Positions 11,426 to 20,657 of a stretch of DNA of 38,190 bases are shown here, one piece after another. The stretch comes from Pollutimonas nitritireducens. Lineage in GTDB: Bacteria; Pseudomonadota; Gammaproteobacteria; Burkholderiales; Burkholderiaceae_B. Location: NCBI RefSeq assembly GCF_002849615.1, contig NZ_PDNV01000017.1:1-38190 (forward strand), written 5' to 3'. How positions within the stretch are numbered: position 1 is the first letter of the stretch; every line of letters starts with the position of its first letter. The position numbers were made by a program, and so were the translations under genes. Under the pieces are notes generated by a model, which saw only the letters and a list, made by a program, of their open reading frames with translations, was not told where the DNA came from and did no database searches.

Positions 11426-13024
11426 TTACTTGCCGGTTTTCTTTATGCTCCAGAAGAGCGGAATCGGTTCGATGGGAACGTCGGTAAGCGAAGTGCGATA
11501 GGCGGCAACGTTGTAGTACTGGCCCAGGGGCGGCGCCACCCCTTCGTCCGTTGCCAGGCGCTGGACTTCATCCGAAATGGCCTTGAGTTCCTTTGCATCG
11601 GAGGCCATGGCGAACTTGTGGCGCAGATCTTCGATGGCCGGGATATCAGGCCAGCCGAACCAGGCGTCCTTACCGTTCGTTGCTATCGCGGAGTCGCGCA
11701 GCGGATCCTGGATATCCAGCAGGCTCCAGTTGGTCGAAAAAATATTCCATCCCCCTTTGGCGGGCGGGTCCATGACCGCGCGCCGGGTGACCACGGTTTG
11801 CCAGTCCATGGCCTGCAGGTTGACCTTGAAACCGGCCTTGCGCAAGGCTTCCGCAATGACGATGGGTTGTGCTGCCAGCCCCGTTACATCGGTGGGTTGC
11901 AGGATTTCGACGGGCGTGCCGTCGTACCCGGCTTCCTTAAGCAAGGCTTTTGCCTTTTCAATATTGGATGGCACCACCATGTCTTCACCATACAAGCTTT
12001 CATACGGCATGCCACAGCCAAACAGCGCCGCACAGGTCTTGTAATACTTGTCATTGCCGACCAGTCCCTGCATGACTTGTTCCTGGCCCACCGCGTACAT
12101 GGCGGCTTGCCTGATCAACTTGTTATTGAAAGGAGGGTAAAGGAAGTTCATCCGGTACATCGTCTGGTAGCCGACCTTGTCGATGATGCCCACCTTCAGG
12201 TCTTTGTTCTGCTCGACGATGGGGAGTAGATCGTAGGGTACTTGTTCTATGTAGTCGATCTCGCCATTCATCAAGGCGTTGACCGCCGTCATGCTGTCTG
12301 GCATTCCGGCCCAGACGACGCGTTCTACATTGACCACCTTGCCGCCCGCCGTGAAACTGGCCGGCTCGCTACGCGGCACATAATCGGTATTCTTTGCGTA
12401 GACTGCCTTCAAGCCAGGTTTGAATTCGTCGGCAACCCATTTGAAGGGTCCGGAGCCGATATGCTCGGTAATGGCCTGGCTGGATGGCGTTTCAGCGATA
12501 CGCTTGGGCATCATGAAGGGGGCAGTGCCGCTGGGCTTGGCCAGCGCCCGCAGGACCAGGTTGGTCGGCTCTTTCAGGACAATCTGGAAAGTCTTGTCGT
12601 CGACGACCTCCATGTCGGCGACCAGGTCCAGCAGCACCTGGCCCATTTTGTCTCGTTCTGCCCACCGCTTGATCGACGGAATGCAGTCTGCCGAGGTGAC
12701 CGGTGTGTTGTCGTGCCATTTCAGTCCTGGACGCAGAGTGAAGGTATAGGTTTTTCCGTCTTCCGAGGCCTCCCATTTCTCGACCATCTGAGGCTGTATC
12801 CTGGCATCGGCGTCGGTGGCCAGCAACGTGTCGTAAATCATGTAGCCGTGATTGCGCGTGATGTATGCGGTGGTGATAATGGGGTCGAGGACACGTAGCG
12901 GCGAATGCAAAACGGCGGTAACGGTTTGTGCGCTGGCCGGCGCGGCGTAGCTGATTGCTCCAGAGACCGATGCGACCAAAGACAGGGCTAGCGCCGAGCG
13001 CAAATTCAGAACTCGAAATGACAT
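11426..13024 (-). CDS. ABC transporter substrate-binding protein, family 5 (peptide type)
   Basis: A 532-residue SBP_bac_5 protein with a Sec signal peptide (ALALSLVASVSGAISYAAPASA) and no lipobox, so it is a free periplasmic receptor. Family landmarks include LHSPLRVLDPIITTAYITR, the YTFTLRPGLKWHDNTPVTSAD segment with the usual acidic residue, and EYIPSIKRW-like helix CIPSIKRWAERD. Relatives bind di- and oligopeptides, glutathione, opines or nickel. Being enclosed by two MlrC-type peptidase genes, the ligand is probably a peptide or modified amino acid amide. AAGGAATAGCTC precedes the ATG. Confidence 0.92.
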   Translation of the reverse strand: MSFRVLNLRSALALSLVASVSGAISYAAPASAQTVTAVLHSPLRVLDPIITTAYITRNHGYMIYDTLLATDADARIQPQMVEKWEASEDGKTYTFTLRPGLKWHDNTPVTSADCIPSIKRWAERDKMGQVLLDLVADMEVVDDKTFQIVLKEPTNLVLRALAKPSGTAPFMMPKRIAETPSSQAITEHIGSGPFKWVADEFKPGLKAVYAKNTDYVPRSEPASFTAGGKVVNVERVVWAGMPDSMTAVNALMNGEIDYIEQVPYDLLPIVEQNKDLKVGIIDKVGYQTMYRMNFLYPPFNNKLIRQAAMYAVGQEQVMQGLVGNDKYYKTCAALFGCGMPYESLYGEDMVVPSNIEKAKALLKEAGYDGTPVEILQPTDVTGLAAQPIVIAEALRKAGFKVNLQAMDWQTVVTRRAVMDPPAKGGWNIFSTNWSLLDIQDPLRDSAIATNGKDAWFGWPDIPAIEDLRHKFAMASDAKELKAISDEVQRLATDEGVAPPLGQYYNVAAYRTSLTDVPIEPIPLFWSIKKTGK

Positions 13025-13139: not shown

Positions 13140-14615
13140 CTACATGGGATCAAGGGGGAAAATCGGGCGGCGTACGTTCTTGAAGGCAAGCTGGTTATAG
13201 TCGGAAGTAGTGACGCCGAGCCCACCGCACTCCACGATTTCGCGCGCCAGGTTGCCGAATCCGGCACGCCAGTGGACGCGGCTTTTAAGGACCACATAGC
13301 GCTTTTTCAGCGGATCGATGCCCGCGGATTGCAGGCAGCTCAGGTCGAAAGGTTCCTGATGCTGCGATACGATGACAATCTCGACCTTTCCGGTGTCCAG
13401 CACCACAGTGGTCCCGGTATCGTTCAGGACGCCTTTGTACATTGGCCCGTGATTGCGATAACGTCCATCGAACACGAATTTGACCTTGCCGCTGACTTTC
13501 AGCGGAGGGTTCGCATCCCGCAAAGCCGGCATCTCGGTTTTGCCGCCCAAGGACAACGTGATGTTTGCGCCTATTCCGGCTTGCGCCGCCATGGTTGCTG
13601 CCTGGGGATCGTAAATGGCATAGAATGCCGCGTTCTCCAGGCCCTGGCGCAAGATCTCGGCCAGGACGGCGGTGGTGTCCATCGTGCCGCCCGACGCACT
13701 GTTATCGCAATGGTCGAGCAAGATGATAGGGCCTTGTGTCATTTGCCTGGCGCGAGCGACGGATTCGTGCAGTGACTCTGGCTGAAACACGAAGTCGGCG
13801 CGCGCATCCCAGGCCTGGTCCAGCAGTTCATCGCGCAGCGTGTTGGCCAAAGCAGGGTCGTTGTCGGTGCATACGACGACGCTGAGGCCAGCGTTATGGA
13901 TGTCGGCGTGGGGGAAGCCGACGAACAGCGATGCGGCCAGGGCTTGCTTTGATTCCATGGCGATGCAGCGGGCTTGCAATGATTTATTGGGTTCGCTGTG
14001 TGTGCCCTGACGCATGACATGAGGCAGCATGGGTCGGTTGCCCCATGCCATGACCGGCTTGATCTGGCCTTTGATGCTGCGCATCAGGATGTCGGCCGCT
14101 CGACTACCGGCTTCGAGCATGTCGATATGCGGGTAAGTGTGGTAGCCCGTGATGACCGTGGCATACCGTACGATGTCGTCGTACAGATTGGTATGCATAT
14201 CCAGCGTGACCCCGACCGGTGTGTGGGGGTCTATGGCGCGCAGTCGCTTTAGCAGCGTGCCTTCGCCGTCTTCGTGGGTTTGCGTGACCATCGCGCCATG
14301 CAGGTCTAATAATATGCCGTCAAAACCGCCCTTCTTGACTTCGTCAAGAATAAGCGTGCTGATGCGCTCGTAAGCCTGGTCGTCAACGGGGCCACTGGGC
14401 CAGGACTCGGCGGCGACCGGGATTACGATTTCTGCGCCATGTCGTTCGGCGATTTCAATAAACCCCCCGAGGCCGCTGCCGGTGCCGCGGTAGGCGGCAA
14501 GCGCATCATCGCCGCGCAACGCCTGCGTCTGTCCTTTGAAGAACCGCTCGAACGGGGTGGGAACCGGCGAGAAGGTATTGGTCTCGTGCTTGAACATTGT
14601 GAGCAACAAACGCAT
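13140..14615 (-). CDS. M81/MlrC-family metallopeptidase, copy 2
   Basis: A 491-residue paralogue of the protein at 6399-7877. It shares MFKHETNTFSPVPTPFERFF, DLHGAMV, LDMHTN, GYHTYPHID, DHCDNSASGGTMDTT and VHWRAGFGNLA, with differences scattered along the length. It has all the candidate zinc-site His residues seen in copy 1, so neither copy looks decayed. The open frame extends to 14654, but the ATG at 14615 has AAGGA 8 nt upstream and matches the start of copy 1. It is the first gene of the operon, with a sigma70-like promoter at 14661-14688. Two intact copies suggest different substrate preference or a heteromeric enzyme. Confidence 0.9.
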   Translation of the reverse strand: MRLLLTMFKHETNTFSPVPTPFERFFKGQTQALRGDDALAAYRGTGSGLGGFIEIAERHGAEIVIPVAAESWPSGPVDDQAYERISTLILDEVKKGGFDGILLDLHGAMVTQTHEDGEGTLLKRLRAIDPHTPVGVTLDMHTNLYDDIVRYATVITGYHTYPHIDMLEAGSRAADILMRSIKGQIKPVMAWGNRPMLPHVMRQGTHSEPNKSLQARCIAMESKQALAASLFVGFPHADIHNAGLSVVVCTDNDPALANTLRDELLDQAWDARADFVFQPESLHESVARARQMTQGPIILLDHCDNSASGGTMDTTAVLAEILRQGLENAAFYAIYDPQAATMAAQAGIGANITLSLGGKTEMPALRDANPPLKVSGKVKFVFDGRYRNHGPMYKGVLNDTGTTVVLDTGKVEIVIVSQHQEPFDLSCLQSAGIDPLKKRYVVLKSRVHWRAGFGNLAREIVECGGLGVTTSDYNQLAFKNVRRPIFPLDPM

Positions 14616-14660
14616 CGCTTTTTCCTTGCTTGGAGGTTGGCGGTACTCTTGCATCGACTG

Positions 14661-14701: not shown

Positions 14702-14749
14702 TAAAAAAACAGTACCACCGTCAATAGGGGTATTGACGGTGGCACTGTT
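14702..14749 (-). terminator. Strong intrinsic terminator of the flavoprotein/ABC operon
   Basis: 14708-14726 and 14731-14749 are complementary over 19 bp with one mismatch and a GGGG-type 4-nt loop. On the minus strand the stem is followed by a run of seven T (14709-14703). It lies 56 bp after the permease gene ending at 14805 and before the promoter of the peptidase operon, so it separates the two minus-strand operons. Confidence 0.85.
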
Positions 14750-14804
14750 TAAAGAAAGAGTTTAAGGGTGCGGCGGAGCTTGAATGTCCTTATTTCCGGC
14801 GATC

Positions 14805-15578
14805 CTACTTGCTATGAGTCCAGTGCTGATGCAGTTTCTGAGCCAGCCCATCAAGCATGAAGCCCAGCGCGCCAATCAGGACGATCACGGCCATCAGTTC
14901 CGAATATGCCAGACGATCGCGGGTATCAAGGATGAAATAGCCCAGTCCTGAACTGACACCCAGCATTTCGCACGGTACCAGCACTATCCAGATGATGCCA
15001 ATGGCAAGGCGCACACCGGTCAGGATATGGCCCAGCACGCCAGGAACCACGATCTTGAACAGTACTTCCCGGCGCGTGGCGCTGAGACTCTTCGCCAGCA
15101 TCAGCCATTTCGGGTCCAGCTGGCGTACGCCGGCGGCGGTATTCAGGATGATGGGCCAGACCGCGGCGAAGGTAAGAAGAAAATAGATTGGCGCGTCGCC
15201 GATGCCGAATACCATGACGGCAATAGGCATCCAGGACAGTGGCGAAATCATGCGCAGGAACTGGAATGCGCTGCCTGTGCAATTTTCCAGGGCGCGGGAG
15301 GTACCGATTGCCAGTCCAATGGGCACACCCAGCATCAGCGCCAGGCCCAGGCCGATGAGCACGCGCTTCATGCTGGTCAGCGTGTGGAGGGTCAACTGGT
15401 TTTGCACCAACAATTCGTACAGGCTTTTGAACGTTTCACCCGGGCTCAGCAGCCCGGCCAGCGCAATGTTCCCTTGTAGCCAATGCGTGCCGGACGCCCA
15501 TAATGCAATCAATACCAGCAGGCCGCCCAGGCCGAGAACGGCACGGGTGCTCAATGGGGTCTGTTTCAGTGCTTTCAT
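14805..15578 (-). CDS. ABC transporter permease, SsuC/TauC/NrtB type
   Basis: A 257-residue permease with about six spans. It shows LIALWASG near the N-terminus, RVLIGLGLALMLGVPIGLAIG, SPLSWMPIAVMVFGIGDAPIYFL and the EAA-type loop KSLSATRREVLFKIVVPGVLGHILTGVRLAIG. This is the pattern of nitrate/sulfonate/taurine importers. It is the last gene of the operon and is followed by a terminator. Confidence 0.92.
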   Translation of the reverse strand: MKALKQTPLSTRAVLGLGGLLVLIALWASGTHWLQGNIALAGLLSPGETFKSLYELLVQNQLTLHTLTSMKRVLIGLGLALMLGVPIGLAIGTSRALENCTGSAFQFLRMISPLSWMPIAVMVFGIGDAPIYFLLTFAAVWPIILNTAAGVRQLDPKWLMLAKSLSATRREVLFKIVVPGVLGHILTGVRLAIGIIWIVLVPCEMLGVSSGLGYFILDTRDRLAYSELMAVIVLIGALGFMLDGLAQKLHQHWTHSK

Positions 15579-15619
15579 GGTGGCGATTTTCGAGACGGGC
15601 CCGGTACGCGGGCCTGATT

Positions 15620-16822
15620 TCAGGTGGTGATGGTTTCTTGACGGGTGAACGAATCCGGCAGTCCGAATGCAGCCATGCCGCCATTGCTGGCAATGGCCTT
15701 TTTCACATATCGGTCGTCCACCAGGTCGCGTGCCACGAAAGCGGGGTCCAGGTCTTGCAGAAACTCGTTTTTGCCGGACACGAGGGTGGTCTTGAGTTTC
15801 CTGATCAGTTCTTCCGTGTAACTGGGGAAAGGGTAAGGCTGGAAGTCGATTCGCTTCTCCTTCCAGCCCGTATTCACGATGGCGCCGGATGCCTGGTAGT
15901 GGGCGCTGTCCATCAATTCGGGCACCAGCACTTGCGCGAGCGCTTCATAGCTATGGGGCGTGTAGTGCTGCGGATTGTCCCTGGCCAGAATGCGGGCGGT
16001 TTCCTGGCGGTGGTCCTGGATCCATACTTGCGCCTGGACGATGCCGTTGACGACCTTCTGCGACCACTCGGGGCGCTGATCCAGGTCCTGTTCATGCATC
16101 AGCACGACGCAGCAGGCGTGATCTTTCCACACATCACCGGTAAAACGCAGGATTTTACCGATTTTCAATACCTCAGCCGATGCATTGAACGGCTCCGCGA
16201 CGGTATAGCCCGCGATCTGCTTGTTGGCCAGCGCCGGCACCATGTCCGAGGGCGACATGACAACTAGTTTTACCTGACCTGGGCCTGCATCGCCTTCGCT
16301 GATGGGCTGCAGGCCTTTACTCTTCAACAAATGCTGGAGCACGATATTGTGCAGGGAATACCAGAACGGGATGGCGACAGTCTTGCCTCCCAGGTCTGCG
16401 ATATCGTTGATGTCGTGTTGCACGGTCAGGCCGGAACCGGACATATGATTCCAGGCAACGACTTTGGCTCGCGACTGACTTCCATAGCGCGCCCATACCG
16501 TCATGGGAGAAAGCAGATGGATGACATTGACCTGCCCCGCCAGGAAGGCTTCGACGATTTGCGCCCAACTGCGGAACAGGCGTGGCTTCTCGACCGTCAG
16601 CCCTTGTGCCTGGAACAGTTCGTTGTGGTGTGCGACCAGCAAAGGCGTTGCATCGGTGATGGCCAGGTAGCCGATCCGCACGGGAGCATCAGGCTCGGCT
16701 GCCCGGGCGACGTTGTGCATGTTCAATAAGGGCAGGGCGCCCATTGCCGTGAATAGCGTGGACAGCTTGATGAACTGACGGCGGGCTTCCAATGAAGCGC
16801 TATACGTTTCGGATTTATTCAT
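15620..16822 (-). CDS. ABC substrate-binding protein, NrtA/SsuA type, Tat signal
   Basis: A 400-residue periplasmic receptor. The N-terminus has a twin-arginine motif, R14-R15 in EARRQFIKLSTLF, then a hydrophobic stretch and VARAAEPDAPVRIGYLAITDATPLLVA. VEKPRLFRSWAQIVEAFLAGQVNVIHLLSPM is typical of NrtA/CmpA/SsuA-like proteins. Tat export suggests folding or cofactor loading before export. The frame is open upstream to 16960, but that part overlaps the ATPase gene and has no signal; the ATG at 16822 is chosen. The ligand could be a sulfonate, nitrate or other small anion, not decidable here. Confidence 0.9.
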   Translation of the reverse strand: MNKSETYSASLEARRQFIKLSTLFTAMGALPLLNMHNVARAAEPDAPVRIGYLAITDATPLLVAHHNELFQAQGLTVEKPRLFRSWAQIVEAFLAGQVNVIHLLSPMTVWARYGSQSRAKVVAWNHMSGSGLTVQHDINDIADLGGKTVAIPFWYSLHNIVLQHLLKSKGLQPISEGDAGPGQVKLVVMSPSDMVPALANKQIAGYTVAEPFNASAEVLKIGKILRFTGDVWKDHACCVVLMHEQDLDQRPEWSQKVVNGIVQAQVWIQDHRQETARILARDNPQHYTPHSYEALAQVLVPELMDSAHYQASGAIVNTGWKEKRIDFQPYPFPSYTEELIRKLKTTLVSGKNEFLQDLDPAFVARDLVDDRYVKKAIASNGGMAAFGLPDSFTRQETITT

Positions 16823-16854
16823 GGTAATTATTTTCCAGGGAAGGGTGTCTCGAT

Positions 16855-17652
16855 TCAGTGGGCGATTCGCGCGCCGCGCAGTGCCTGCATGATCTCGATA
16901 CGTATGTGTGTCAATGGCGGCGCCAATGCGTCGCGGGGATGCGCGGACGCTATCGACCATTCGCCGATCAGTCGGCCGGGGTATTGGCCTATAAGCAGGA
17001 TGCGGTCTGCCAGAATCAGCGCTTCGTCAATGTCGTGCGTAACCAGAATGGCCGAGGCCTGATGCCTGGCGATGATCTGCAGCAGAAGCGCTTGCATTTC
17101 GCTGCGGGTGACCTCGTCCAGCGCGCTGAACGGTTCATCCAGCAACAGGATTTCGGGCTGGCGTGCCAGGCTGCGTGCCAGGGCAGTGCGTTGCGCCATG
17201 CCGCCCGACAGTTCAGCGGGGTAGCGTTCAGAGGCCCCTTGCAAGTCCACTTCTGCAATGGCGGCTCGCACTCGTGTTTTCCTGTCTTCCTTGCCGAGCG
17301 TCGGCTGGTGCTTGAAGTCCAGACCGAAAGCAACATTCTCTTCCAGCGTCAACCAGGGCAGCAGGCTTGGATCCTGAAAGACGAAGCTCAAACGCGGATG
17401 CGGCCCGCGTAGCGGCTCGCCGTTAATATGGACCCCGCCCCGGTCAGCACTTTGCAGTCCGGCCAGAACGCGCAGCAGCGATGACTTGCCAACGCCGCTG
17501 GGACCCAGGATCGCCACGACTTCGCCGGCTGCCAATTGCAGGGAGAAGTCCTGGAGGACCGTATTGGGCTCCTGATGGGGGCGCTTGTAGCTGAGCGCAA
17601 TATCATGGGCGTTCAGGACGATAGGCCTGTCCACTGCCGCGGAAATAGTCAA
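16855..17652 (-). CDS. ABC transporter ATPase, SsuB/TauB type
   Basis: A 265-residue ATPase with Walker A GPSGVGKSS, Q-loop VFQDPSLLPWLTLEENVAFGL (the PWLT form common in nitrate/sulfonate ATPases), signature LSGGMAQRTALARSLA and Walker B LLLDEPFSALDEVTR. The start is TTG at 17652, with AGGA 8 nt upstream, 9 bp after the rubredoxin stop. It shares the operon with the receptor and permease genes downstream. Confidence 0.92.
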   Translation of the reverse strand: MTISAAVDRPIVLNAHDIALSYKRPHQEPNTVLQDFSLQLAAGEVVAILGPSGVGKSSLLRVLAGLQSADRGGVHINGEPLRGPHPRLSFVFQDPSLLPWLTLEENVAFGLDFKHQPTLGKEDRKTRVRAAIAEVDLQGASERYPAELSGGMAQRTALARSLARQPEILLLDEPFSALDEVTRSEMQALLLQIIARHQASAILVTHDIDEALILADRILLIGQYPGRLIGEWSIASAHPRDALAPPLTHIRIEIMQALRGARIAH

Positions 17653-17661
17653 GAATTTGTC

Positions 17662-17826
17662 CTAGTCGGGTATCAGGAAGAAATCTGCTTTCGTCACGCC
17701 ACAGTCGGGACATGCCCAGTCGTCGGGAATGTCCTCGAAAAGCGTGCCAGGAGCGATTCCATCTTCCGGCATGCCAAGCGCTTCGTCATAAATCATGCCG
17801 CAGGGACCGCACATCCATTGCTTCAC
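17662..17826 (-). CDS. Rubredoxin, 54 residues
   Basis: A complete rubredoxin, easily missed because of its size. It reads [18 protein letters not shown], then [20 protein letters not shown], ending ADFFLIPD. C6/C9 and C39/C42 form the two CxxC knuckles that bind one Fe, and W38 and the DDW-C-P-x-C-G core are canonical. Rubredoxins are one-electron carriers to alkane hydroxylases, superoxide reductases and similar enzymes. GTG at 17826 overlaps the stop of the flavoprotein gene as GTGA, so the two are translationally coupled and probably work together. An ABC ATPase gene follows 9 bp later. No rubredoxin reductase is seen in the window. Confidence 0.95.
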
Positions 17827-18995
17827 TGTGCGGCCTCGGCCCGATGTCGGGTGACTTCCGACGCGTATCGATCCGCGGATACTTGCTGGGCAGCCGCCTG
17901 CTCGATGTCATGAATTTCTTTACGCAGGTGCTTCAAGGCAGGCGTGACGATGGCTACGAACACCGCTTCGCGCAGACGGCGTTGAGCAGGGTGGCGCATC
18001 AGATATCCTTTGGCGCCTGCATGCAGGACGGCTGAGTTGGCCGCGGCAAGCGTGAGTTCCGACGTTCGTGCCCGCAACTTCAACACGTCAAGGATGGGCG
18101 CAGCGCCTGCCTGTACCTGCGCCCCAAGTGCGCCGGCCTGCGCCTTCAGCACGTCCAGCTTGGCCGCCAGCTCCTGTCCCTGGTCATCCAGGAACACATT
18201 TACGTGAGCGGTACTGGCGTTGCTTTCACGTATGGTCTTCAGGCAGGCTTCGGTCACGCCAAAGCCCATGCCTGTCTGGCCCAATATGAAACCGGGCTTG
18301 ATGCTGGCGATATACTTCCCAAATTGAGAGGGATGGGCCAATACGTTGACGGTTGAAATCCGCGCGTTCTTGAAGCGCAGGTTCAGTGTTTGCGTGCCTT
18401 CGAGTGCGGAAAATTCAGGGCAGGGATGCAAACTCAATCCATCGGTACTGCCGTGTACAGCAAACATCACATAGCCTTCGTCTTCGACCGACGCGGCGAC
18501 GATAGCCAGGTGCTGGGCACCCACATTTGATACCCAAGGCAACGAACCGTCAACGATATAGTCGTCGCCGTCGCGGCGCGCACTTAGGTGGATCTTTTCT
18601 ATGCCGGCCAGGTGCTTGACCGCATTGGACATTCCAGTGCCCGCAAGCAGGCTACCCTGTACGACCGAGGTCAGATAACGGTCCCGTACGGTCAGGTTGG
18701 GAGAGGCCAGCAAATAAGCGGCGCAACTGGACTGGCACCACACCAGAAACGCCGTGGATCCGCATTCGCGTCCCACTTCAGTGGTAATCCTGATCTGTGC
18801 GGCCATGTCCAGGCCGGACCCGCCATATTCGCGCGGGATGCTTGCGCCGAAACCGCCCAGGGCGCCGAGGCGACGCAGATAATCGATCGGGTACAAGCCG
18901 TCCTGGTCTATGGCCTTGGCCAAGGGTGCGAGGTCGGACTTAACATGCACCGCAATGGCGTCAATTAGCGCTGCGGCTGGGTCGGTTAGGCTCAC
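17823..18995 (-). CDS. Acyl-CoA dehydrogenase-fold flavoprotein, probable non-dehydrogenase
   Basis: A 390-residue protein with the acyl-CoA dehydrogenase fold: helical N-domain with [16 protein letters not shown] (49-63), beta domain with [13 protein letters not shown] (145-157), and helical C-domain. Where true dehydrogenases carry YEGT with the catalytic Glu, this protein has [12 protein letters not shown] (342-353), so that base is missing. The usual TEP-x-AGSD loop is replaced by [13 protein letters not shown] (119-131). These changes are shared by flavin-dependent relatives such as SfnB and DszC that activate oxygen rather than dehydrogenate CoA esters. Context (rubredoxin, AhpD-like protein, sulfonate-type importer) supports an oxidoreductase or monooxygenase on an imported compound. 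The start is GTG at 18995 behind AAGGA. Confidence 0.82.
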
Positions 18996-19027
18996 GACGG
19001 ATTTCCTTGCTTTATGCTGTGTTGCGG

Positions 19028-19570
19028 TCAGGCGTAGGCTTGCAGTTCGTCATTGATGGGCGTCTTGGCCAGATTGTTGGCGTAGTTGCATAGTGTTGCC
19101 AAGCTGACGCCCAGCACCACCTCCAGCGCGTTGGCCTGGGTGTAGCCGGCCGCGAGGAAATCGTTTAACTGGCTATCGGAGACCTGGCCTTTGTTTTCCA
19201 TGACGGCGACGGTGAACAATGCCAGTGCATTGAGTTTCGGGTCGCTTAGGGCCTGGGTGTTGCGCAGCGCGTGAATCGCTTCTTCGGGCATGGCAAGTTT
19301 TTTGCGCGCAATGGCAGTATGGCCCGCCACGCAGAAGCCGCAGCCATTGAGCGTTGCGGCGGTAATCTGGATGACTTCACGTTCGGCGCCTGACAATCCG
19401 GTGCGCGCATTGATGGCGCCCACGACCTGGTATGTCTCGAGCGCCGTCGGGGCGTTGGCCAGCACGCCTATCAGGTTAGGCAGGAAGCCGTTGTTTTTAC
19501 GCGCAACTTCGAGGCGCTCCTTGGATTCGGCGGGAGCGGAGTCTACGGTTTGAATGGTGATGCGGCTCAT
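19028..19570 (-). CDS. AhpD/carboxymuconolactone decarboxylase-like protein
   Basis: A 180-residue all-helical protein of the AhpD/CMD superfamily, with the redox motif ITAATLNGCGFCVAGHTAIARK: CxxC plus the proton-relay His, and the preceding Glu of AhpD-like peroxidases in EREVIQ. Such proteins reduce peroxides with a thiol partner or act as redox helpers. It is the first gene of the operon, 32 bp upstream of the flavoprotein gene, and would protect against peroxide leaked by a flavin oxygenase or act on a peroxidic intermediate. CMD-like proteins are known beside SfnB-like flavoproteins in sulfur-scavenging clusters. Confidence 0.9.
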   Translation of the reverse strand: MSRITIQTVDSAPAESKERLEVARKNNGFLPNLIGVLANAPTALETYQVVGAINARTGLSGAEREVIQITAATLNGCGFCVAGHTAIARKKLAMPEEAIHALRNTQALSDPKLNALALFTVAVMENKGQVSDSQLNDFLAAGYTQANALEVVLGVSLATLCNYANNLAKTPINDELQAYA

Positions 19571-19766
19571 TTTACGTTTCTTGATCCAGGTTTATATTCC
19601 TTTGAAGTCTAATGGCGTCTGGATTAATTAGAAACGAATATATAGATATTTGGTTATACGTTTAAGTTATCTGGCGTGGTGCGATCGCACGAGATTTTCC
19701 CGCGAACGGAACCCGTGGCCTATGATCCGGGTGTCGAGTGCATCACGGTACCAACAGGGAGACATT
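19571..19766. promoter_or_regulatory. Divergent AT-rich promoter region
   Basis: This 196-bp spacer separates the AhpD-like gene (minus) from the spermidine-synthase-like gene (plus). It is AT-rich at 19618-19672, as expected for promoters, and holds a perfect 12-bp palindrome GTGCGATCGCAC at 19679-19690. No -35/-10 pair can be assigned with confidence. The palindrome could be an operator, but it also resembles a random GATC-centred dyad. Confidence 0.35.
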
Positions 19767-20657
19767 ATGAAATCTGGACACCGCCGCTTTCGATGGCCTG
19801 CCTTGCTCGGACTGGCCCTGGCCGCGTGTTCCGCGGTATTGGTCACCTACTCGCTGTCCAATTCGCTGTCCCCGCGACTCGTTCATACTGAGCCATCCGA
19901 ATTCGCACCCGTACTCGTCATCGACGAGTATGGTCAACGCTGCATGAATTTCGAGAAAATCAAAGACAGGGGCCGCCAGACCTGTTTCGATGTCAGCGAC
20001 CCCGACGTAATGGTTTTCGACTACACCCGCATGATGACAAGCGCGCTTTTCGTGAAGCCTGATCCGCGCAATGTACTGATGGTGGGCTTGGGCGGCGGCA
20101 CCATCCCGATTGCCCTGGCAAAAATTCTTCCTGATGCTGTGGTCGACACGGTGGAGATTGACCCGGCAGTCCTGCGGGTGGCCGAAGCGTATTTTGGCTT
20201 CAAGCAAGGGGCTCGACAGCGAGTGTTTGTGGGCGACGGACGCGCTTTTATCGAAAAGGCGCAGCGTGAAGGCCGGACCTACGATCTGGTGATGCTGGAT
20301 GCGTTCGATGTCGATTACATTCCGGCCCATCTGCTTACCCGGGAATTCCTTCAACATCTGCGTGCCATTCTGACGCCTGACGGCGTAGTGGTGGCCAATA
20401 CTTTCACCAACTCCACCATGTATGAGCGGGAATCAGCGACCTATGCCGCCGTGTTCGGCGAATTTTTCAACTTGCGCGCGGGCAACCGGGTGATTATTGC
20501 AAGTCGGGGACCGCTGCCGGACGATGGTGTCTTGAAAAAAAACGCGGCTGCGCTGGCGCACGCCTTGAAGCCCTTTGGCATCGATGTGGAGCGCGAGCTG
20601 CAGCGCTTCTCGAGGCATCGTGACTGGAGCGCTGATGCCGCCGTGCTGACCGACTAA
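19767..20657 (+). CDS. Spermidine synthase-like methyltransferase-fold lipoprotein
   Basis: A 296-residue protein. The N-terminus has a basic stretch and hydrophobic segment ending LAAC (C21), a fair lipobox, so it may be membrane-anchored. Then comes a Rossmann methyltransferase fold with VLMVGLGGGTIPIALAKILP (SAM/dcSAM-binding loop), DTVEIDP, VGDGRAFI and VMLDAFD (the D-x-F-D of polyamine synthases). Similar proteins are common in proteobacteria, but most are not proven polyamine synthases, and a secreted or anchored form could not easily reach cytosolic SAM. The ATG at 19767 behind AGGGAG is chosen over an upstream in-frame start at 19650. It appears monocistronic. Confidence 0.8.
   Translation: MKSGHRRFRWPALLGLALAACSAVLVTYSLSNSLSPRLVHTEPSEFAPVLVIDEYGQRCMNFEKIKDRGRQTCFDVSDPDVMVFDYTRMMTSALFVKPDPRNVLMVGLGGGTIPIALAKILPDAVVDTVEIDPAVLRVAEAYFGFKQGARQRVFVGDGRAFIEKAQREGRTYDLVMLDAFDVDYIPAHLLTREFLQHLRAILTPDGVVVANTFTNSTMYERESATYAAVFGEFFNLRAGNRVIIASRGPLPDDGVLKKNAAALAHALKPFGIDVERELQRFSRHRDWSADAAVLTD

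Follow-up and report, generated by a model that had tools for sequence, protein, structure and literature searches.

An operon linking a Glu-less ACAD-fold flavoprotein to rubredoxin in Pollutimonas nitritireducens: a candidate oxygenase with thiocyanate or cyanide as possible substrates

Several described systems resemble in part a six-gene operon that we analysed in 38,190 nucleotides of Pollutimonas nitritireducens DNA (contig NZ_PDNV01000017.1; this whole stretch is hereafter the window), whose central product is a flavoprotein of the acyl-CoA dehydrogenase (ACAD) fold, called FLV here, encoded beside a rubredoxin. The alkane hydroxylase AlkB, which we take to be served by rubredoxin and rubredoxin reductase, follows the NADH-to-rubredoxin-to-oxygenase logic proposed below, but AlkB is a membrane di-iron enzyme and the oxygenase here would be an ACAD-fold flavoprotein. 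The flavin monooxygenases SfnB, DszC and (as we presume) their kin have in common with FLV an ACAD fold without the dehydrogenase glutamate; FLV falls far under the SfnB and DszC cut-offs, however, and is adjoined by rubredoxin rather than by a flavin reductase. The pathway of thiocyanate dehydrogenase (TcDH) and cyanase would likewise give cyanate and zero-valent sulfur from thiocyanate. TcDH is a copper enzyme, described without O2 or NADH, in organisms that have cyanase operons; no sequence relation to FLV is claimed. The cynABDS cluster is matched by a cyn-type binding protein beside FLV in 15 of 37 related loci with an OsmC gene, whereas the window has an importer of a different type (26-27% identity between binding proteins) and no cyanase. 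In the literature searches made, where results on rubredoxin with cyanate were judged by title and the start of the abstract, we found no paper describing this system.

The operon (Table 1) comprises six co-directional minus-strand genes which encode, from 5' to 3', a CMD/AhpD-like thiol protein (CMD), FLV, rubredoxin, and the ATPase, binding protein and permease of an ATP-binding cassette (ABC) importer, with intergenic spacers of 32, -4 (a GTGA overlap), 9, 32 and 41 bp. Open reading frames (ORFs), Pfam assignments and a hairpin scan confirmed the tightly spaced arrangement with a single terminator that an earlier sequence-only reading had described. The host genome measures 4.31 Mb, and Pollutimonas subterranea and P. 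bauzanensis are the named organisms closest to it by FLV. We consider it fairly likely that FLV is an O2-dependent oxygenase fed by NADH through rubredoxin. The full reading, in which imported thiocyanate would be split to cyanate by this enzyme, is put forward tentatively, the substrate being suggested by the gene content of relatives. With less than even confidence, we also propose that FLV heads a clade of NADH/rubredoxin-fed ACAD-fold oxygenases which would convert thiocyanate (or cyanide) and O2 to cyanate. Such enzymes would supply the aerobic step that is missing ahead of cyanase in many Proteobacteria, and a sister without rubredoxin would sit in a P. aeruginosa operon induced by hydrogen cyanide (HCN).

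The gene order is conserved elsewhere. Comparison of neighbourhoods found the six-gene order again in Alcaligenaceae, Polaromonas and Rhodanobacter, so that the non-conservation which would have undone the sequence-only reading did not appear. A scan of genome contigs yielded 26 FLV loci. At the level of the family 73 of 268 genomes carry FLV (E to 1e-60), at that of the class 13 of 369 (E to 1e-55) and at that of the phylum 16 of 398 (E to 1e-45), the own genome being counted each time and related genomes not being independent of each other. Flanking sequence was at hand for 72 loci of the FLV clade, the window among them: 33 have CMD as partner, 37 have OsmC and two have neither. The 33 CMD-type loci carry rubredoxin alone (21), fused (1) or not at all (11), and 30 of them have a window-type binding protein and none a cyanase; since the partners are kept across these loci (rubredoxin in 22, the same importer type in 30), the operon is not a chance assembly. 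In the 37 OsmC-type loci rubredoxin is fused in 20, alone in two and missing from 15, and these loci further contain a sigma-54 regulator (23), cyanase (15), a window-type binding protein (13), a rhodanese-like gene (14) or a persulfide-dioxygenase-like gene (3). Partner labels cluster on a tree of 89 FLV rows, where rubredoxin alone needs five changes and the rows with rhodanese and without rubredoxin form one group; the tree was built by a quick method with hand-set labels, from which the later locus count departed in some cases (rubredoxin stands alone in L098 and L110). Two genomes (G050, G127) carry both FLV types, which argues against redundancy. CMD, FLV and rubredoxin also occur together in Neisseria gonorrhoeae (L076 6309-8338, on a 2.17-Mb sequence that is deposited as a plasmid) and in L121, a 1.8-Mb genome.

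The fold of FLV is well defined. An AlphaFold2 model (mean predicted local distance difference test score 96.7) matches human short-chain ACAD (SCAD) 2vig best, with a TM score of 0.84 at 20% identity, among the best 50 of 371 significant matches. Together with the three-domain fold, the Acyl-CoA_dh_N score places FLV in the ACAD fold family; Acyl-CoA_dh_M stays below its cut-off (30.3 versus 33.3 bits). Taking as catalytic the two positions that we assume for SCAD and medium-chain ACAD (MCAD) and for isovaleryl-type enzymes, FLV has Thr351 at the former, where the profile alignment to solved ACADs ends just before the SCAD glutamate and was extended without gaps, and Pro234 at the latter. None of 84 FLV homologues has Glu or Asp at either position, as the sequence-only reading of a Glu-less fold had it, and the neighbouring residues are mostly non-acidic too, except for the conserved E343 of an R-E motif. 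The clade is marked by C78 (84/84), C87 (82/84) and H325 (82/84), for which five sister FLVs have S, G, and A or S, respectively; W86, N124, K127, E133, W154, Q240, R339, R342 and E343 are common to FLV and all five sisters. The earlier interpretation was supported in part: its Glu-less fold, rubredoxin supply and gene order found support, and membership of SfnB (TIGR04022, 37.7 bits against a cut-off of 430.9) and SsuA (TIGR01728, binding protein at 105.7 against 163.5) was not supported in the form given. Membership of DszC (NF043015, FLV at 28.3 against 850) and of AhpD proper (TIGR00777, CMD at 19.2 against 191.95) was dropped on the same grounds.

The proposed electron supply is argued from fusions in relatives. 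Two proteins of about 450 residues scanned from OsmC-type loci, of Marinobacter and Acetobacter, consist of an N-terminal rubredoxin and a remainder resembling pyridine-nucleotide-disulfide oxidoreductases (Pyr_redox_2), for which NorW is the best match (274.9 and 206.8 bits, below the cut-off of 392). A protein resembling NADH-dependent rubredoxin reductase directly after FLV argues for a route from NADH through rubredoxin to FLV, and electrons probably run in this direction; the supply role given to rubredoxin by the sequence-only reading thus gains support. The window rubredoxin shows two CxxC pairs, and a second rubredoxin of the host genome lies on another contig (C29). Rubredoxin is nevertheless optional within the operon, a point which that reading had missed. 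A PF00301 search of 34 genomes found 20 without rubredoxin beside FLV (15 judged from neighbourhoods, five by coordinates), and a strict need for an operonic copy was rejected on this count. All 20 carry exactly one rubredoxin elsewhere, so that some rubredoxin may still be needed. Thirteen genomes with an operonic rubredoxin carry two or three, and G726 has none besides its operonic copy. A small DUF302-type protein sits between FLV and the reductase fusion at L099 (6972-7544) and also at L100, L102, L104 and L109, one of the five having been scanned and the rest assigned by clustering.

Cyanase provides a clue to the product. Its presence in the same genome or locus, taken here as the sign of a cyanate pathway, was found in 38 of 40 non-CMD-type genomes over 12 family codes, and in 21 of the 40 it lies within 11 kb of FLV, against 0.25 expected at random. 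The 40 comprise 31 genomes with an examined neighbourhood and nine further family genomes; G508 shows no OsmC since FLV begins its contig, and the cyanase matches in G315 and G245 are partial, at contig ends. Within the family, cyanase occurs in 21 of 25 OsmC-type, 2 of 46 CMD-type and 71 of 195 FLV-less genomes, the types being set by FLV identity (at least 49% for CMD-type, at most 45% for OsmC-type) rather than by the neighbours of each, and the two genomes with both types being excluded from the comparison of types. Cyanase therefore goes with OsmC-type FLV and not with CMD-type, to which the window belongs. In the relatives, the cyanase, rhodanese-like and persulfide-dioxygenase-like genes, a tie which the sequence-only reading had also missed, point to cyanate-yielding oxidation of thiocyanate or cyanide over a generic sulfonate. 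Near cassette and cyanase in L101, L103 and L105 are large genes which, by eye, we presume to resemble DUF2309/NuoL-type inorganic-carbon uptake, and a glutathione S-transferase gene lies near the cassette at L103 (2763-3371, scanned) and L111 (4103-4711, by clustering).

The importer connects the two kinds of locus. The models nearest to its binding protein (SsuA family) and ATPase (taurine and nitrate importers) all score below their cut-offs. The window binding protein is 50-66% identical to those of the sister operons described below and 41-46% identical to those of Marinobacter, Pseudosulfitobacter, SC52 and Methylocystis, and the Marinobacter importer of this type adjoins cyanase. Window-type importers in both groups thus tie CMD-type and OsmC-type loci together. 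The longest ORF of the window binding protein begins at 16960, within the ATPase gene; we took the ATG at 16822 as its start, which yields a leader with what we take to be a twin-arginine motif.

The sister operons have no rubredoxin, and their CMD and importer genes lie on either side of a more distant FLV; their hosts are Roseomonas, Bartonella sp., Agrobacterium, Variovorax and Deinococcus by annotation and Paraburkholderia by similarity. PA2331 of P. aeruginosa is presumably a CMD protein too, and PA2327-PA2331 is not known to include a rubredoxin. This P. aeruginosa operon combines an importer and an ACAD-like protein in a layout as here. It most resembles the sister operons, whose FLV lacks C78, C87 and H325, the likeness being one of leader and annotation. 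The PA2328 leader, as printed in PMC6085387, fits the binding-protein family of the window: it scores 104 against the Agrobacterium leader and 61 against that of the window (best of 500 shuffles 37 each), and OsmC-type leaders stay at shuffle level. PA2327-PA2331 is described as an operon that quorum sensing activates and that encodes a probable ABC transporter (PMC3315558). Table 6 of PMC10687435, citing Frangipani 2014, marks PA2328-PA2331 as raised by HCN. The annotations used here come from PMC8466066, which also reports lower PA2328-PA2330 transcripts in a PA2504 mutant; of the 42 transcripts changed in that mutant, 30 belong to sulfur genes. PA2331 is listed as falling in a rubredoxin-reductase mutant, in the same table as other genes such as hcnA and phz (PMC12431658), an effect that may be indirect.

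Regulation perhaps involves a CysB-type regulator. Among 38 upstream regions, the box is seen again in about a dozen, those of close relatives; by eye, no clear box is seen upstream of the Rhodanobacter, Neisseria-type and sister operons. A search of the whole genome allowing up to three mismatches gave three matches, the window included, against none in the control, and one of the two further matches (two mismatches) precedes a CysB-family gene (454 bits, cut-off 402) by about 36-60 bp. With a matrix of 11 boxes, picked by eye from the 38 regions, just two places in 157,138 bases of own sequence exceeded a score of 10: the window box and the CysB-family promoter, the latter region having been included because of the earlier match. 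The box was not found at six other SsuA-like loci of the genome, and the ORFs around the single SsuA paralogue above the family cut-off do not look like a canonical ssu operon. A second, spaced pattern was discarded as noise (16 matches against 8 in the control).

Under the reading that we favour, the ABC importer would bring a small anion into the cytoplasm, where it would be split with O2. Electrons would pass from NADH to a rubredoxin reductase, which relatives carry as a fusion with rubredoxin, then to rubredoxin and to the FAD of FLV, and for thiocyanate the net reaction would be SCN- + O2 + NADH + H+ -> OCN- + thiol-bound S0 + H2O + NAD+, making FLV an O2-dependent cytoplasmic counterpart of TcDH. 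CMD, or OsmC in relatives, may take up the sulfane sulfur or clear leaked peroxide. The gain for P. nitritireducens would be sulfur, and relatives with cyanase would also exploit the nitrogen. Thiocyanate is favoured because it fits most of the clues together: as an anion it would need an importer, sulfur regulation suits it, its products would be cyanate for cyanase and sulfane sulfur for rhodanese and persulfide dioxygenase, and a link to HCN follows from rhodanese, which converts HCN to thiocyanate. Several results weigh against this reading. A genome search found no cyanase in the window's own genome, the strongest result against its product serving as a nitrogen source, and the rate of cyanase in CMD-type genomes is below that of FLV-less ones; cyanase is moreover described as an unreliable marker of thiocyanate use. 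No rubredoxin reductase was found in the 10 kb around the second rubredoxin, the whole genome not having been searched, and the sulfur and HCN data belong to the sister operon, not to the FLV clade of the window. In the stretch examined, no matching importer accompanies the copies of N. gonorrhoeae and L121.

HCN fits these importer-less Neisseria-type copies better than thiocyanate, as it requires no importer. FLV could accordingly be the postulated cyanide monooxygenase (HCN + O2 + NADH -> cyanate + H2O via rubredoxin), with the importer taking cyanate or another cyano-compound, which we regard as improbable: the cyanase linkage of relatives and the HCN induction of PA2328-PA2331 (PMC10687435) agree with it, as does the proposal of such an enzyme, never demonstrated according to PMC11049912, while the importer is retained in 30 of 33 CMD-type loci, and a persulfide-dioxygenase-like gene and sulfur co-regulation are not expected, though rhodanese is. 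Close to what the sequence-only reading had suggested is a sulfur-scavenging S-oxygenase for an imported organosulfur compound such as a sulfonate or sulfide, with rubredoxin replacing the flavin reductase. This seems unlikely to us: the importer's nearest models, the sulfur co-regulation of PA2328-PA2330 (PMC8466066), the CysB-type box and the scarcity of cyanase in CMD-type genomes all suit it, but it leaves unexplained the cyanase linkage of relatives that share the FLV motif and whose importer is related. A reductive or peroxide-defence system, in which NADH, rubredoxin, FLV and CMD or OsmC would reduce peroxide, hypothiocyanite or another oxidant, is less probable again. Two unrelated families, both presumably of thiol-peroxidase type, do occupy the same slot, and solved CMD relatives bear the name AhpD, but neither importer nor cyanase is expected of such a system, and according to PMC10687435 PA2328-PA2331 mutants were not NaOCl-sensitive, only that of PA4134 differing among the mutants tested. 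Very unlikely, finally, is an ordinary CoA-ester dehydrogenase that uses electron-transfer flavoprotein or passes electrons to rubredoxin. The solved structures closest to FLV are acyl-CoA dehydrogenases, but we set this function aside on the missing glutamate in 84 of 84 homologues; no acyl-CoA model comes near its cut-off (best 81.2 bits versus 640), and in relatives rubredoxin is fused to an NADH-reductase-like domain.

Table 1. Features of the operon and its flanks, in window coordinates.
Feature	Position	Strand	Details
CMD/AhpD-like thiol protein, CGFC...H	19028..19570	-	PF02627 52.5 bits (cut-off 23); AhpD core domain TIGR00778 46.6 (cut-off 27.8)
FLV, Glu-less ACAD-fold flavoprotein	17823..18995	-	GTG start; Acyl-CoA_dh_N 66 bits (cut-off 22.9)
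Rubredoxin	17662..17826	-	GTG start; PF00301 74.8 bits (cut-off 23)
ABC importer ATPase	16855..17652	-	TTG start; ABC_tran 116.7 bits (cut-off 25)
ABC substrate-binding protein, twin-arginine-like leader	15620..16822	-	NMT1_2 157.9 bits (cut-off 24.7)
ABC permease	14805..15578	-	BPD_transp_1 77.4 bits (cut-off 26.4)
Terminator hairpin	14707..14750	-	-31.4 kcal/mol, z -10.4; T run after; top terminator of scan
Upstream box (ATAAcc-AATAT...ATATTCGTT), candidate operator	19633..19657	-	62 bp ahead of CMD

Beyond the terminator, which parts it from the operon, lies a gene for a Microcystinase MlrC-like protein (13140-14654, minus strand; 197 bits versus a cut-off of 999), followed by one for a NikA/GsiB-like peptide or nickel ABC binding protein (11426-13024). 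On the other side, a divergent spermidine-synthase-like gene (19650-20657, plus strand) also adjoins the operon in P. subterranea (L009).

According to a genomic study of how Pseudomonas degrades cyanide, a cyanide monooxygenase has been proposed and not experimentally demonstrated (PMC11049912). A rubredoxin-fed flavin oxygenase with cyanase-adjoining relatives makes this question, and its thiocyanate equivalent, directly testable. If our reading is true, ACAD-fold oxygenases would gain a new electron supply, and a function would be suggested for the HCN-responsive, quorum-sensing-activated operon of P. aeruginosa.

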